Assembly (NCBI GenBank): GCA_026004195.1
Contig: BPIQ01000003.1
Location: 62,001 to 126,000, forward strand
DNA from: Candidatus Binatia bacterium
GTDB taxonomy: Bacteria; Desulfobacterota; Binatia; HRBIN30; BPIQ01
DNA: 64,000 nt
Direction of reading: 5' to 3'
The notes under the pieces are model-generated. The model was not told the DNA's origin. It was given only the letters and a program-made list of their open reading frames with translations, and searched no databases. Below are positions 1-43,665 of this stretch, piece after piece. Each line of letters opens with the position of its first letter. Position 1 is the stretch's first letter. Both the position numbers and the translations under genes were made by a program.

Positions 1-369
1 GTCCTTCGCGAACACGGCCACGACAGAGCGTGGCCCTCCGATAGCCGACCTTCGGAACGCCGCGCCCATGCGTGGAGGCACGGGCCCCGTCGCGTTCGCC
101 CGGAGGGATGCGCTCCGTCGCGTCCGGGGGGGGCGCGTGGGATCCGCCGGCCGGACGTCCTGGATGATCGCCGGTACCATCCGCGAACACGGCCACGACA
201 GAGCGTGGCCCTCCGATTGGGGATTTCGAATGCGGTGTCGGGATGCACCGGTTCGCGCGGCCTTCGATCCGGAGGGACGCGCTCTGTCGCATCCCGGGGG
301 TTCGTGGCCGACGCGAACACCGCCACCCGGAGGGACGCGCTCCGTCGCGTCCGGGGGTGGGCATCGTGG
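1..369. repeat. REP/BIME-like hairpin repeat array
   Basis: Five hairpin cores are visible at 16-35, 106-125, 191-210, 275-294 and 333-352. Each is a 7-base stem, a 6-base loop (ACRGAG or its complement) and a 7-base stem, with GGAG next to the stem. The first four are 84-90 bp apart and alternate in orientation. Stem types are GGCCACG/CGTGGCC and GGACGCG/CGCGTCC. The stretch 139-215 is almost repeated at 42666-42750, so the copied unit is longer than the hairpin. No gene is supported here; long open frames exist only because the repeat lacks stop codons. Confidence 0.85.
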
Positions 370-7597: not shown

Positions 7598-7927
7598 CTG
7601 GCATGGTCGGAGGGACCCGCTCTGTCGTGGCCGCGTCCATCGACCCCACGAATGGTCCTCGCCGTGCGCGACGGCACGGCCTCGTCCCACCCCGCGGACG
7701 CGACGGAGCGCGTCCCTCCGGGTCGAATGCCGCATCGCGAGACCGCACCTCGAAATCCCCGATCGGAGGGCCACGCTCTGTCGTGGCCGTGTTCATCGAC
7801 CCCACGAATGTTCCTTGCCTGCGCGACGGCACGGCCCTCCACCCCGCGGACGCGACGGAGCGCGTCCCTCCGGGTCGAATGCCGCATCGCGACACCGCAC
7901 CTCGAAATCCCCGATCGGAGGGCCACG
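7598..7927. repeat. REP/BIME-like hairpin repeat array (left of IS copy 1)
   Basis: Cores lie at 7613-7632, 7696-7715, 7769-7788 and 7848-7867, with a split core at 7921-7927. Orientation alternates and spacing is 73-83 bp. Here the GGCCACG type points right and the GGACGCG type points left, the reverse of the array at 42.3 kb. The first core pairs a GGACCCG arm with a CGTGGCC arm and looks like a hybrid of two stem types. The IS element begins directly after the left arm of the last hairpin. Confidence 0.85.
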
Positions 7928-9572
7928 GGTTTGTGAACAAATTCGGGTCTTGGCGAAAGGCCAGCGAAGCAGGAGCTCGCCGGGGTCGGTCGGAGGAAAA
8001 AAGAGAAGGCTGGCGGCCTCCGGGGTTCCCACCGAGCCCCGGCTTGCCACCTCCTTCCGGTCTTTTCGTCTTCGGTTTCGGCCCTCTCTCTCGCCTACGA
8101 CGCCTTAGCTTCCGCCCGCGGCCGCAAGAAGGGCGAACCACCGCAGCAGGTTGTAGGTGATCACGTTCAGCAACACGATGCACCGCACCTTCGTTCTCCC
8201 CCGTAAGACGATCTTCCCGAGCGTCCTCCAGCGCTTGAGGTCCGCGTGCACCCGCTCGCTCACCCGAGCCCGCACGCCGTAGATCGCCCGCCCCTCCGGT
8301 GTCCTCATCCTCTCTTTGAGCTGCCGCACCGCTTCGCTGTCCCGGGGCCGCACCTCGTAGGGATCGGGCTTCCCCTTCCTTTTCGGTAAAGCCCCGTAAA
8401 GCTCCACACCCCGCGCACTGAGCTCCTCCACGTTCTCCACGCTCGTGTAGCCCGTGTCCACCACATACTGCTCCGGAAGCCTCCCGAACCTCCGCTCAAG
8501 CTGCTCCAGCATCGGCACCGCCTCGGCAAAATCCGTCCTCCCCTGACTCACCTCCACCCCCACCACCACCTCGCTCTCCGCGTCCGTCGCCAGCTGGACA
8601 TTGTAGCCCGGAAGATACGCCCCGCCCGTCTGCCGCATCACGCGCGCCTCGGGGTCCGTCGTCGAGCTGCGTGGCTCCCCCGAGGGCTCCTTCGCCCCCT
8701 TCTTGTAACCCCCGCGCTCCCTCTCCAAAGCCGCGAGCTCCTCGAGCGCCCTCGTAAGCCTCCTCTCCCTCTCCTCGAGCGCTCGCCTCTGCGCAGCCTG
8801 CTTCCTCCTCGAGAGGCTCCGCCGTGCCGGTGCCTCGAGCTCCCCACGCAGCGCCTCGATCTGTCTGCGTACCTCCGCCCGCAGCTCCTCCACCTTCTTT
8901 CTCCTCCGAAACGACCGGTCCCCGGCCGAAGCTCGCACCCGCGTCCCGTCCTGCGCCACCCGCCGAAGCCGCACCAGCCCCTCGGCCATCATCACCGCCA
9001 ACACCTGCGTGAAAAGCTCCTCGAGCGCCTCCGCGTTCTCGCTCCGAAACGTGCTCAGCGTGTGGTAATTCACCGGTACCCCCGCCCCGAAGCCACCGGT
9101 AGGCCACGTGCTGCTCCGTCAACCTCTCGAGCTCCCTCGCACTGCCTACCCCCTCCGCCGTCGCATAGAGCCACAGCGCCAAAAGCACCTGCGGATCCGT
9201 CGCATCCCGCCCCGCCCAGCTCCCCCGCGCCTTGATCCTCTCGTAAAAGGCCGAAAGGTTCAGCTTCTTCACGACCGCCAACACACTGCGGGCCCGGTGC
9301 GTCTGAGGCAGCTCGCCGTCCAGATCCACCACCTCCCACCGAAGCTGGCTCCGCTCCGCTCTCACCACCCGCGGTGCCGCCTTCGCTGCCTCCGCCCGCC
9401 GCCGCTCCCGCGCCTCCGCGAGCCTCCGCTTCCTCTCCTCCGCACTCTCCCCGCCCAGAAGCTCCACCTGCTCCATCCCTTCACCTCCCCACCGTAGCTT
9501 CCCCTCCCTACCACACTCCGCCCCCAGAGCCGAATCCCTCCAGGGTAAATTTCCGAATTTTTTCACATCCTC
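7928..9572 (-). mobile_element. IS1182-like insertion sequence, copy 1 (transposase frame broken)
   Basis: The element is 1645 bp and nearly identical to the copy at 15079-16722. Imperfect terminal inverted repeats share TGTGAA-x-AAATTCGG. It splits a hairpin repeat and is flanked by CACG on both sides (7924-7927 and 9573-9576), which reads as a 4-bp target duplication at the stem/loop boundary. About 180 bp of non-coding DNA lies downstream of the transposase. The IS1182-like assignment rests on the transposase sequence; no database was searched. Confidence 0.85.
8105..9476 (-). pseudogene. IS1182-like DDE transposase, frameshifted
   Basis: Compared with the intact copy 2 (456 residues), this copy has one extra C in a C-run near 9078 (five instead of four). 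This splits the N-terminal helical part from the catalytic domain that resumes at NYHTLSTFRSENAEALEELF. The same ATG with GGGGAGGTGAAGG before it is present at 9476. The catalytic domain otherwise keeps the QDGTRVRA, DTGYTS and late ERVHADLKRW segments expected of an RNase H-fold DDE enzyme. I see no slippery heptamer with a downstream structure that would argue for programmed frameshifting. The intact copy in the same window suggests either a recent mutation or a consensus error. Confidence 0.85.
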
Positions 9573-9918
9573 CACGCTCTGTCGTGGCCGTGTTCATCGA
9601 CCCCACGAATGTTCCTTGCCTGCGCGACGGCACGGCCCTCCACCCCGCGGACGCGACGGAGCGCGTCCCTCCGGGTCGAATGCCGCATCGCGACACCGCA
9701 CCTCGAAATCCCCATCGGAGGGCCACGCTCTGTCGTGGCCGTGTTCATCGACCCCACGAATGTTCCTCGCCTGCGCGACGGCACGGCCCTCCACCCCGCG
9801 GACGCGACGGAGCGCGTCCCTCCGGCACCACCCGCCGACCCCGGACGCGACGGAGCGCGTCCCTCCGGCCGGGTGCGACACCCCCGACGACCGGGACGCG
9901 GCGGCCACGTCCCCGCGT
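9573..9918. repeat. REP/BIME-like hairpin repeat array (right of IS copy 1)
   Basis: The right part of the hairpin split by IS copy 1 is at 9573-9589, followed by cores at 9649-9668, 9721-9740, 9800-9819 and 9843-9862. Segment 9577-9735 repeats 7771-7920 almost base for base, so the array was amplified as a ~150-bp double-hairpin unit. The array ends at the stop codon of the SDR gene at 9919. Confidence 0.85.
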
Positions 9919-14973: not shown

Positions 14974-15078
14974 GGACGCGCTCCGTCGCGTCCGGGGCGG
15001 CGAGGGGTGCACGCAGCCGTGAGCGTCGGACGATCTAGGTCCGTGCCATCGATGAACACGGCCCGCCGGAGGGACGCG
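14974..15078. repeat. REP-like repeats between the IS110 and IS1182-like elements
   Basis: The right part of the hairpin interrupted by IS110 lies at 14974-14993. A second hairpin arm (GGACGCG, 15072-15078) is interrupted by IS copy 2. The 15012-15070 spacer is repeated at 17860-17910 with few changes. Two IS elements in adjacent hairpins of one array show how strongly these repeats are used as landing sites. Confidence 0.8.
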
Positions 15079-16722
15079 GGTTTGTGAACAAATTCGGGTC
15101 TTGGCGAAAGGCCAGCGAAGCAGGAGCTTGCCGGGGTCGGTCGGAGGAAAAAAGAGAAGGGTGGCGGCCTCCGGGGTTCCCACCGAGCCCCGGCTTGCCA
15201 CCTCCTTCCGGTCTTTTCGTCTTCGGTTTCGGCCCTCTCTCTCGCCTACGACGCCTTAGCTTCCGCCCGCGGCCGCAAGAAGGGCGAACCACCGCAGCAG
15301 GTTGTAGGTGATCACGTTCAGCAACACGATGCACCGCACCTTCGTTCTCCCCCGTAAGACGATCTTCCCGAGCGTCCTCCAGCGCTTGAGGTCCGCGTGC
15401 ACCCGCTCGCTCACCCGAGCCCGCACGCCGTAGATCGCCCGCCCCTCCGGTGTCCTCATCCTCTCTTTGAGCTGCCGCACCGCTTCGCTGTCCCGGGGCC
15501 GCACCTCGTAGGGATCGGGCTTCCCCTTCCTTTTCGGTAAAGCCCCGTAAAGCTCCACACCCCGCGCACTGAGCTCCTCCACGTTCTCCACGCTCGTGTA
15601 GCCCGTGTCCACCACATACTGCTCCGGAAGCCTCTCGAACCTCCGCTCAAGCTGCTCCAGCATCGGCACCGCCTCGGCAAAATCCGTCCTCCCCTGACTC
15701 ACCTCCACCCCCACCACCACCTCGCTCTCCGCGTCCGTCGCCAGCTGGACATTGTAGCCCGGAAGATACGCCCCGCCCGTCTGCCGCATCACGCGCGCCT
15801 CGGGGTCCGTCGTCGAGCTGCGTGGCTCCCCCGAGGGCTCCTTCGCCCCCTTCTTGTAACCCTCGCGCTCCCTCTCCAAAGCCCCGAGCTCCTCGAGCGC
15901 CCTCGTAAGCCTCCTCTCCCTCTCCTCGAGCGCTCGCCTCTGCGCAGCCTGCTTCCTCCTCGAGAGGCTCCGCCGTGCCGGTGCCTCGAGCTCCCCACGC
16001 AGCGCCTCGATCTGTCTGCGTACCTCCGCCCGCAGCTCCTCCACCTTCTTTCTCCTCCGAAACGACCGGTCCCCGGCCGAAGCTCGCACCCGCGTCCCGT
16101 CCTGCGCCACCCGCCGAAGCCGCACCAGCCCCTCGGCCATCATCACCGCCAACACCTGCGTGAAAAGCTCCTCGAGCGCCTCCGCGTTCTCGCTCCGAAA
16201 CGTGCTCAGCGTGTGGTAATTCACCGGTACCCCGCCCCGAAGCCACCGGTAGGCCACGTGCTGCTCCGTCAACCTCTCGAGCTCCCTCGCACTGCCTACC
16301 CCCTCCGCCGTCGCATAGAGCCACAGCGCCAAAAGCACCTGCGGATCCGTCGCATCCCGCCCCGCCCAGCTCCCCCGCGCCTTGATCCTCTCGTAAAAGG
16401 CCGAAAGGTTCAGCTTCTTCACGACCGCCAACACGCTGCGGGCCCGGTGCGTCTGAGGCAGCTCGCCGTCCAGATCCACCACCTCCCACCGAAGCTGGCT
16501 CCGCTCCGCTCTCACCACCCGCGGTGCCGCCTTCGCTGCCTCCGCCCGCCGCCGCTCCCGCGCCTCCGCGAGCCTCCGCTTCCTCTCCTCCGCACTCTCC
16601 CCGCCCAGAAGCTCCACCTGCTCCATCCCTTCACCTCCCCACCGTAGCTTCCCCTCCCTACCACACTCCGCCCCCAGAGCCGAATCCCTCCAGGGTAAAT
16701 TTCCGAATTTTTTCACATCCTC
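15079..16722 (-). mobile_element. IS1182-like insertion sequence, copy 2 (intact)
   Basis: The element is 1644 bp, differing from copy 1 by about half a dozen substitutions and one base of length. It is flanked by CGCG on both sides (15075-15078 and 16723-16726). It sits at the same place in the hairpin as copy 1: after the left stem arm and before the CTCCGT loop. The ends carry the same imperfect inverted repeats. Confidence 0.88.
15256..16626 (-). CDS. IS1182-like DDE transposase, intact
   Basis: The 456-residue transposase starts at the ATG at 16626, preceded by GGGGAGGTGAAGG. The N-terminus (DGELPQTHRARSVLAVVKKL, LLALWLYATAEGVGSARELE) is the helical DNA-binding part of DUF772/IS1182 transposases. 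The RNase H-like core has first Asp in AQDGTRVRA, a long Arg/Glu-rich coiled insertion, Asp in VVDTGYTSVENV, and Glu in SERVHADLKRWRTLGK. The open frame continues upstream to 17253 through the array, but this is repeat sequence and not part of the gene. It could mobilise both copies. Confidence 0.93.
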   Translation of the reverse strand: MEQVELLGGESAEERKRRLAEARERRRAEAAKAAPRVVRAERSQLRWEVVDLDGELPQTHRARSVLAVVKKLNLSAFYERIKARGSWAGRDATDPQVLLALWLYATAEGVGSARELERLTEQHVAYRWLRGGVPVNYHTLSTFRSENAEALEELFTQVLAVMMAEGLVRLRRVAQDGTRVRASAGDRSFRRRKKVEELRAEVRRQIEALRGELEAPARRSLSRRKQAAQRRALEERERRLTRALEELGALEREREGYKKGAKEPSGEPRSSTTDPEARVMRQTGGAYLPGYNVQLATDAESEVVVGVEVSQGRTDFAEAVPMLEQLERRFERLPEQYVVDTGYTSVENVEELSARGVELYGALPKRKGKPDPYEVRPRDSEAVRQLKERMRTPEGRAIYGVRARVSERVHADLKRWRTLGKIVLRGRTKVRCIVLLNVITYNLLRWFALLAAAGGS

Positions 16723-17000
16723 CGCGCTCCGTCGCGTCCGGGGGGGTATGAACGTGTCGGTCGCGTTTGCAATGGGGTGCGGCGTCCGATCCGCGGAGAC
16801 GCCCCCGCCGGAGGGACGCGCTCCGTCGCGTCCGGGGGGATGGGGACAAGGTGGTTCGTGTTCGGCCACGGAGGGCGGTACCAAACACGACCACGGCCAC
16901 GACAGAGTGGCCCTCCGATTGCGGATTCGAAACGTGGCGTTGGGATGCGCGCCATCGCGGGACGTTCGCTCCGGAGGGACGCGCTCCGTCGCGTCCGACT
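16723..17000. repeat. REP/BIME-like hairpin repeat array (right of IS copy 2)
   Basis: The split core is completed at 16723-16740. Further cores lie at 16814-16833 (GGACGCG type), about 16895-16912 (GGCCACG type, opposite orientation, two bases short) and 16977-16996 (GGACGCG type). The array abuts the stop codon of the CBS gene at 17001, as other arrays abut gene 3' ends. Confidence 0.85.
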
Positions 17001-17468: not shown

Positions 17469-18048
17469 CGCTTTTTCTCCTTGCCCGTGTGCGCTACTCA
17501 GGAACGGGGAAAACGCCCGAAGGCTTCGCCAGCACAACGGGCATCGCCTCCTTTTCAAGTGGAGCAACCTCTCTGCCAAAATGCGTCGCCCCTGAGGCAC
17601 GGGCCTTTTCGCTTTTTTTCACACGGGACTCTTCGCACGTTCCGGAAGATGTTTCGCGGGAATGCGAACAGGGGACGGGTAGAAGGGAGCCGTTCGGATC
17701 CGTCGGGAGAAATGTGACGGGGGGCCCGGAGCGCATTGGATTTTTTTGTGCGAAATTCGGCCAAGTGGGGATTTTCTCACGATCCCCGCGCTCCGTCGCA
17801 TCCCGGGCGGCCGGAGGGACGCGCCCCGTCGCGTCCGGGGGGGCGGGGGGCGCGCGGCCGTGAGCGTCGGACGATCGAGGTCCGTGCCATCGATGAACAC
17901 GGCCCACCGGAAAGACGCGCTCCGTCGCATCCCGGGCGGCCGGAGGGACGCGCTCCGTCTCGTCCGGGGGGATGGGCGAGCCCTCGCTTTCTTTACTCCC
18001 GGGCGGACTCTGGTCTAGGCGTGGGTTTTCGACAACACCGGAGGGGAA
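17469..18048. repeat. Non-coding stretch with REP-like repeats (17786-17975)
   Basis: Region 17469-17785 shows no convincing gene. From 17786 there are degenerate or intact cores at about 17786-17804, 17817-17836, 17908-17930 and 17946-17965. The 17860-17910 spacer is shared with 15012-15070. The GCTTTCTTTACTCCCGGGCGG at 17985-18005 resembles the border repeat of the 24-25.5 kb island. The EthD-like gene follows with GGAGGGGAA as its ribosome-binding site. Confidence 0.75.
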
Positions 18049-38285: not shown

Positions 38286-38712
38286 CGGAGAGATGCGCTC
38301 CGTCGCGTCGGGGGTGGGGCGAGGCGAATGCGCGCAGGCGCTGCATCCAAGGATCGCCGCCGGCATCTTCGACCACGGCCACGACAGAGCGTGGCCCTCC
38401 GATTGCGGGAGGCGGAACGAACACGCACGGTCGGCGGACACAACGAACATCAATTCGATACGGAGGGACGCGCTCCGTCGCGTCCAGGGGCGGGGGCGTG
38501 AACGTGCCCGTCGCCTTCGCAATGCCGCGCGGCGTCCGGTGGCCCGACCCGCACCCGCCGGAGGGACGCGCTCCGTCGCGTCCGCAATGACGCGACCCTG
38601 CCATCGGCGAGCACGGACCCGACAGAGCGGGTCCCTCCGAACGCACGTCCGAGCCATCACGTCCGCCATAAAAGGCCATCGGCCTCCGAGACGGACGCAC
38701 TCTGTCGCGTCC
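38286..38712. repeat. REP/BIME-like hairpin repeat array
   Basis: Cores lie at ~38291, 38377-38396 (GGCCACG, inverted), 38466-38485, 38564-38583 (GGACGCG), 38615-38634 (GGACCCG/CGGGTCC, inverted) and 38693-38712. The block 38316-38466 is nearly the same as 42488-42640, including non-hairpin spacer such as GAACACGCACGGTCGGCGG. The array stops seven bases before the MauG gene's stop codon. Confidence 0.88.
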
Positions 38713-42315: not shown

Positions 42316-42835
42316 TCGCCCGTGAGGAAGCGCGGTCCGTCGCGTCCGGGGGCGGCGGTTCATGGCGAACGCGAACACGGACCCGACAGAGCGGGTCCCT
42401 CCGATTGCCGGAGGCGAGGCGAACGCGCGCGGTCCGTGGAAACCATGAACATCAACCCACCTGGAGGGACGCGCTCCGTCGCGTCGGGGGGTGGGGCGAG
42501 GCGAATGCGCGCACGCGCTGCATCCAAGGATCGCCGCCGGCATCTTCGACCACGGCCACGACAGAGCGTGGCCCTCCGATTGCGGGAGGCGGAACGAACA
42601 CGCACGGTCGGCGGACACAACGAACATCAACCCGATACGGAGGACGCGCTCCGTCGCGTCCGGGGGCGGTGGGATCCGCCGGCCGGACGTCCTGGATGAT
42701 CGCCGGTACCATTCGCGCACGCGGCCACGACAGAGCGTGGCCCTCCGATACCACCTTCGGAACGCCCCGCCCATGGTGGAGGCACGTACCCCGTCGCGTC
42801 CGCCCGGAGGGACGCGCTCCGTCGCGTCCGGGGGA
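42316..42835. repeat. REP/BIME-like hairpin repeat array, most regular copy
   Basis: Cores lie at ~42326, 42378-42397 (GGACCCG/CGGGTCC, inverted), 42467-42486, 42554-42573 (GGCCACG, inverted), 42642-42661, 42723-42742 (GGCCACG, inverted) and 42810-42829. From the second on, steps are 89, 87, 88, 81 and 87 bp, with strict alternation of orientation and stem type. The flanking 42127-42315 stretch upstream of the MauG gene has no gene. No cas genes, equal-length spacers or direct repeat order, so this is not a CRISPR. Confidence 0.9.
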
Positions 42836-43529: not shown

Positions 43530-43665
43530 GGACGCGACGGAGCGCGTCCCTCCGGGCCGGCCATGGTCGCGGGCGCCGCAACGTCCATCCCTGGATGCGA
43601 TGGGTCCTCGTTCTTCGCGTTCCCCTCGGACGCGACGGAGCGCGTCCCTCCGGGCCGGGTACGCG
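43530..43665. repeat. Two REP-like hairpins between converging genes
   Basis: Cores of the GGACGCG/CGCGTCC type with ACGGAG loops lie at 43530-43549 and 43628-43647, same orientation, 98 bp apart. They fill the space between the 3' ends of marC and the nitronate monooxygenase gene. Placement between convergent genes is typical of REP elements. Confidence 0.85.

Follow-up and report, generated by a model that had tools for sequence, protein, structure and literature searches.

GGAG-tagged REP-like hairpins in a Binatia genome and RAYT transposases beside related hairpins in other phyla

Hairpin arrays in the window

Positions 42,316 to 42,835 of the window, as we call the whole 64,000-nucleotide stretch of Candidatus Binatia DNA analysed here, hold an array of short tagged hairpins. 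In the orientation in which the loop reads CTCCGT, the element consists of a 5'-GGAG, a 7-bp stem arm, a 6-nt loop and the second 7-bp arm, 24 nt in total; this is the 7-6-7 architecture with GGAG immediately 5' of the stem that an earlier examination of the letters alone (the sequence-only reading) had described. Five of its copies are strict; of the other three, one is damaged in its tag and two are degenerate (Table 1). The loop, held in that reading to be constant, is CTCCGT in type 1 hairpins but CTCTGT in types 2 and 3. Searches of the window matched no Rfam family and found no tRNA or tmRNA.

The window carries 28 strict copies in eight arrays, or about 33 copies when weaker ones and those broken by insertion sequences are included, in keeping with the initial estimate of about 35 copies in nine arrays. 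Two of the arrays are interrupted by insertion sequences of the IS1182 family.

Table 1. Hairpin copies, arrays and insertion sequences in the window
Position	Strand	Feature	Details
16..352		Array, 5 copies	Type 2 (-) and type 1 (+)
7609..7871		Array, 4 copies	Type 2 (+) and type 1 (-) alternating; first copy (7609-7632) with half-changed stem GGACCCG/CGTGGCC
7916..9584	-	IS1182-family insertion sequence	Frame broken; inside type 2 hairpin
9572..9866		Array, 4 strict copies + 1 broken copy	Broken by IS1182 insertion
15067..16734	-	IS1182-family insertion sequence	Inside type 1 hairpin; NF033551, 336 bits
16723..16996		Array, 1 broken + 2 intact type 1 copies	Type 1 copy broken by second IS1182 copy
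17909..17965	+	2 degenerate copies
38287..38712		Array, 4 strict + 2 weaker copies	Type 1 (+), types 2/3 (-)
about 42325-42348		Degenerate copy
42379..42402	-	Type 3 copy, strict	GGAG-GGACCCG-CTCTGT-CGGGTCC
42463..42486	+	Type 1 copy, strict	GGAG-GGACGCG-CTCCGT-CGCGTCG; single unpaired foot base
42554..42577	-	Type 2 copy, strict	GGAG-GGCCACG-CTCTGT-CGTGGCC
42642..42661	+	Type 1 hairpin	GGACGCG-CTCCGT-CGCGTCC; tag minus one G (CGGA abutting GGACGCG)
42723..42746	-	Type 2 copy, strict	GGAG-GGCCACG-CTCTGT-CGTGGCC
about 42778-42801		Degenerate copy
42806..42829	+	Type 1 copy, strict	GGAG-GGACGCG-CTCCGT-CGCGTCC
43530..43651	-	2 type 1 copies

Copy number, strand phasing and stem pairing

Across the 3.63-Mb host genome (6 contigs, 98.9% complete) the exact pattern GGNNNCGACRGAGCGNNNCCCTCC yields 281+281 matches and the looser pattern GGAGGGNNNNNCTCYGTNNNNNCC 291+285, or 576; the reversed control patterns give 0 matches in both cases, and the copy number is therefore far above chance. 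A 24-nt hairpin in 576 copies falls within the REP definition of a 20-40 bp palindrome in very high copy. Placement of the copies is uneven: among the matches listed, there is no exact-pattern copy over some 545 kb of contig C1 of the host genome (G000:C1, about 55,400 to 600,800), and copies on this contig are dense at 3.5-55 kb, near 930-1000 kb and at 1,665-1,690 kb. Among viral contigs, matches were confined to three, with a single match each.

Genome-wide distribution was taken from these pattern counts, while types, tags and phasing were sampled in 448 kb of host sequence made up of the window and selected stretches. The 274 sampled elements include 154 of type 1 (GGACGCG, loop CTCCGT), 85 of type 2 (GGCCACG, CTCTGT) and 27 of type 3 (GGACCCG, CTCTGT); the tag is exactly GGAG in 250 and GTAG in two. 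Only 32 of the 274 lie inside called genes, compared with about 63% of the sequence called coding, so that by these crude GC-frame calls the elements are mainly extragenic, as is characteristic of REPs. Types 2 and 3 have common flanks (ATC 5' of the tag and GTGTTCG 3' of the hairpin), and type 3 is therefore best read as type 2 with two of the stem's base pairs altered, each in both arms; type 1 differs in having CCC on the 5' side and a run of G on the 3' side.

The types are phased by strand. Among neighbouring elements of the sample no more than 200 bp apart, type 1 beside type 2 or 3 lies on opposite strands in 155 cases and on the same strand in one, and like lies beside like (types 2 and 3 pooled) on the same strand in 51 cases and on opposite strands in one. 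Because of these counts, each array can be said to show one stem type per strand, and the inverted pairs and alternating arrays that define BIMEs are present at a ratio of 155:1.

A search by tag and loop alone, which avoids selection for pairing, recovered 256 elements in the 448 kb, with GGACGCG (119), GGCCACG (71) and GGACCCG (16) as the dominant stems. All seven pairs are formed in 207 of the 256; the sequence-only reading of perfectly paired arms thus applies to most copies but not to all, an exception being 7609-7632, whose stem is half-changed. The three host stem versions are inherited subfamilies with only a few independent compensatory events within the genome, and the compensatory changes first noted there are mostly the two ends (types 1 and 2) of one composite unit on opposite strands. 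Within-host covariation was accordingly dropped as evidence, the three stem types having been inherited by descent from few founders.

Between genomes the covariation is strong. For 62 distinct stems from other genomes, likewise picked out by tag and loop without regard to pairing, the mean is 5.24 of 7 Watson-Crick pairs, compared with 3.34 when partners are permuted (maximum of 10,000 permutations: 3.90). In a set of 41 distinct 24-mers sharing the CTCCGT loop, pairing is seen in 87.5% of cells against 57.7% after shuffling, and the covariation score is 0.669 against 0.164, a value reached by 0 of 500 shuffles; sliding the partner by one base lowers the score to 0.08-0.09. At five of the seven stem pairs both partners vary in many of the sequences. 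The proposal of a stem kept by compensatory change, which was to stand or fall with the alignment of more copies, is hence borne out strongly once many genomes are compared. Stems would diverge between families by paired changes since it is the folded hairpin that is recognised, with tag and loop diverging less.

A further suggestion, that the CTCC of the loop pairs with the GGAG, is weakened. The two are complementary in sequence, but CTCCGT or CTCTGT is still the loop of GTAG-C tagged REPs at three loci (L183, L196 and L168), other GGAG families (including those of L113, L117 and L173) have the loops GCC, GCT or TGCCAC, and the predicted single-strand DNA fold is a stable hairpin with the tag unpaired. 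As a general feature, pairing of tag and loop lacks support, and pairing with GGAG is probably not what the loop CTCC serves for.

RAYT transposases and the mobility of the family

Profile searches with PF01797, a RAYT-clade profile (E up to 10) and NF047646 detected no Y1 transposase in the host genome, nor any fragment of one; the initial remark that no RAYT gene is present holds for the window and extends to the whole assembled genome. With the RAYT missing from the host, the mobiliser has to be deduced from relatives. The host is the sole member of its family among the genomes compared and shares its order with G001, G002 and G007. NF047646 scores in 14 of 15 same-order genomes, in seven of them over the cut-off. 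In G007 a RAYT is flanked by three GGAG-GGCCGCG-CTCCCG hairpins. The homologues nearest to this RAYT, those of G001 and G002, likewise lie with GGAG hairpins, whose stems contain tandem G-A mismatches.

A scan of 84,980 species added 80 further RAYT loci, mostly from Verrucomicrobiota, Kiritimatiellota, Lentisphaerota and Planctomycetota; at many of these loci the gene lies between GGAG hairpins in which the loop is CTCCGT and the stems are of many kinds, and GGAG-flanked RAYTs also occur on Thermodesulfobacteriota and Acidobacteriota contigs. The stem pair of the window recurs around the RAYT cleanly at L124 (Kiritimatiellae; five GGACGCG and five GGCCACG hairpins) and L138 (Desulfobacterales), and mostly at L118 (Planctomycetota). 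A cognate RAYT flanked by the same hairpin, the mark of a REPtron, is thus seen with this stem pair at L124 and L138 but is absent from the host genome. At both L124 and L138 the RAYT-sense strand carries GGCCACG and the opposite strand GGACGCG, the phasing rule is obeyed by six of the eight copies at L118, and, counted over all RAYT loci, 200 of 207 copies of stems that occur repeatedly are found on the majority strand of their stem. The RAYTs of L124 and L138 are sisters on the tree (95% SH-aLRT). Hairpins of the window and of the RAYT loci share the 24-base core only; their flanks differ. At three other loci (L090, L093 and L099) RAYTs are flanked by GGGAGC-GCGGGCN-TCY hairpins, in which a GGAG-like tag stands one base off the stem.

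The proteins of L124, L138, G007, G001 and G002 are RAYTs by Y1 HUH fold, motifs and family profile. The NF047646 cut-off is passed by those of L124, L138, G007 and G001 and by one G002 copy, the other G002 copy scoring 75.9 of 80; HUH and Y..NP motifs are present in the alignment; and the predicted L124 fold (pLDDT 93) has 4ER8, the E. coli TnpA-REP structure, as its closest match (E 2.9e-8). The sequence-only proposal, in which a RAYT moves a REP-like family that has GGAG as its guide, is supported by these GGAG-flanked RAYTs in other phyla, two of them with the stem pair of the window.

The hairpins might instead act chiefly as RNA, as terminators, mRNA stabilisers or protein-binding hairpins 3' of genes, and have their stems kept for that role. 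Their mostly intergenic location and their stability are in line with this, and published REPs can have RNA roles (PMC3733652). An RNA role, however, does not predict the strand phasing of the tag and the two stem types, RAYT genes of other phyla have these very 24 bases at their sides, and the orientations of flanking genes show no clear excess between convergent genes by crude gene calls; we regard it as very unlikely.

An even more improbable origin is that of a MITE or other DDE-element derivative spread by the IS1182 transposase. All ten full IS1182-family copies of the host genome (two in the window; L199-L208) do lie inside GGAG hairpins, and the insertion point is fixed, at the same place in the 5' arm of type 1, 2 and 3 stems. 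The IS1182 ends (about TGTGAAMAAATTCGG), however, are unrelated to the hairpin; since the element has its own ends and interrupts the hairpin at one fixed spot, the hairpins are its target. Elsewhere, moreover, they flank RAYT genes. IS1182 was on these grounds rejected as the mobiliser.

Several observations attach to these insertions. At L206 the left flank is of type 2 and the right flank of type 1, as if two copies had recombined. Seven separate pieces of about 35 bp (L210-L216) match the right end of the IS1182 element, and that of L215 adjoins a type 2 hairpin. A further copy, at 17770-17803 of the window, is interrupted at much the same point, but the interrupting sequence is another one (TTTTCTCACGATCC) and may belong to a second insertion sequence that targets REPs.

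The repeats very probably constitute a REP/BIME family, that is, non-autonomous hairpins, mobile as single strands, of a RAYT (TnpA-REP, Y1 HUH) system, belonging to a GGAG-tagged branch, with about 580 copies in a genome whose RAYT has been lost or lies in an assembly gap. By analogy with TnpA-REP, the RAYT would recognise GGAG and the hairpin on one DNA strand, its catalytic tyrosine would cut the strand near the hairpin, and this cutting would let it copy or move inverted hairpin pairs. Under the published guide model, in which A3G4 selects CT and T2G4 selects CA (PMC8266576), GGAG would be expected to go with cleavage at CT and CC. The mobile unit would be an inverted pair with unlike ends: GGACGCG (type 1) at one end and GGCCACG (type 2), or the GGACCCG variant of it, at the other. 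Arrays would be repeats of this unit. The family would have expanded to about 580 copies in the host, the RAYT having since been lost or lying in one of the few assembly gaps; the host copies are therefore probably now immobile, and serve also as landing sites for the IS1182 element.

It is also conceivable, albeit unlikely, that the RAYT is not lost but sits in an unassembled gap, with the family active to this day. One end of contig C6 falls within an array of hairpins, the end of C4 and the start of C5 are near arrays, the assembly is 98.9% complete in 6 contigs, and perfect stems are kept in most sampled copies (207/256). Most contig ends, however, have no hairpins within 3 kb, and the three profile searches recovered not even a RAYT fragment.

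The GGAG tag and known REP systems

The tag separates RAYTs as well as hairpins. In a tree of 78 rows, from which four long or odd rows had been excluded, 41 are labelled GGAG, 16 GTAG and 21 have no assignable tag; some tags, in rows with few hairpins, were set by inspection, and GTAG-C was counted as GTAG. One change separates the GGAG from the GTAG rows (branch support 100/99). Unlabelled rows lie inside the GTAG clade, for which reason an AU test confined to the 16 GTAG rows was set aside as uninformative. W94, Q95, E100, H101 and R104 of E. coli TnpA-REP have been tied to the GTAG contact (PMC6006769). When the L124 RAYT is aligned to 4ER8, WQKSFWDTQLR falls over WQPRFWEHAIR, with T109 and Q110 of L124 opposite H101 and A102. 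The H101 column holds H in 22 of 23 GTAG-clade RAYTs, and T (41) or R (13) in 54 of 55 on the GGAG side; the column after it changes from L/V/I in the GTAG clade to Q or R, and the W, Q and R of the motif are retained. Other columns, for example 103, 126 and 89, differ as strongly between the clades, and the link between tag and residues in these alignments is a correlation from one tree split, a single evolutionary event. A preference for GGAG would accompany the change at the tag-reading residues (H101 and position 102 of E. coli to T/R and Q/R).

We favour, with some reserve, the view that GGAG REPs form a third superfamily, found in PVC phyla, some Thermodesulfobacteriota, Acidobacteriota and the host lineage, with a distinct RAYT branch whose contact residues changed once and two strand-phased stems per family, the host being a natural RAYT knock-out with about 580 copies. 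The findings bear on the way RAYTs select hairpins and on what sustains REP populations. A natural tag switch from GTAG to GGAG on one RAYT branch, together with contact-residue changes, makes specificity testable by a two-residue swap, and the host genome, where REPs number in the hundreds and a RAYT is not detected, puts the dependence of REP populations on the transposase to the test.

The GGAG-tagged branch is previously unlisted among REP elements. Reviews name the tags GTAG, GTGG and CGTC along with 'atypical' structures (PMC3733652, PMC6006769), and GGAG is absent from the REP papers searched, so that an earlier description may exist. REP surveys confined to GT[AG]G tags, the RNAMotif search of PMC6006769 among them, would fail to pick up the branch.

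Among the closest known counterparts is the GTAG superfamily of REPs and BIMEs with their RAYTs (Nunvar 2010 PMC2817692; Di Nocera 2013 PMC3733652), with which the present family shares a short tagged hairpin in hundreds of copies, inverted alternating intergenic arrays and, here in relatives, a RAYT flanked by the same hairpins. That superfamily has GTAG or GTGG 5' of the hairpin, whereas the tag here is GGAG (250/274) rather than GT[AG]G, the host lacks a RAYT and the tag-reading RAYT positions differ. E. coli BIME-2, with Y and Z2 units flanking yafM (PMC2817692), likewise alternates two REP types in opposite orientation, but its tag and RAYT branch are different, and the family described here has a plain 7-bp stem without a bulge and shows its phasing in more than one phylum, at several loci. 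REPINs (PMC3116915, PMC8049555) also have an inverted pair as the likely mobile unit; here its ends have different stems. CGTC-tagged REPs (PMC3733652) resemble the host repeats as tagged palindromes reported without a dedicated transposase; they differ in tag and stem (CGTC and an 8-9 bp stem starting with A/T pairs, in contrast to GGAG and a 7-bp stem starting with GG), and for the GGAG family a RAYT partner is identifiable elsewhere. Finally, REP-targeting insertion sequences such as ISPpu9 (PMC8450116) also insert at one position in REP hairpins, whereas the one found here is a DDE element of the IS1182 family with all ten full copies in GGAG hairpins.
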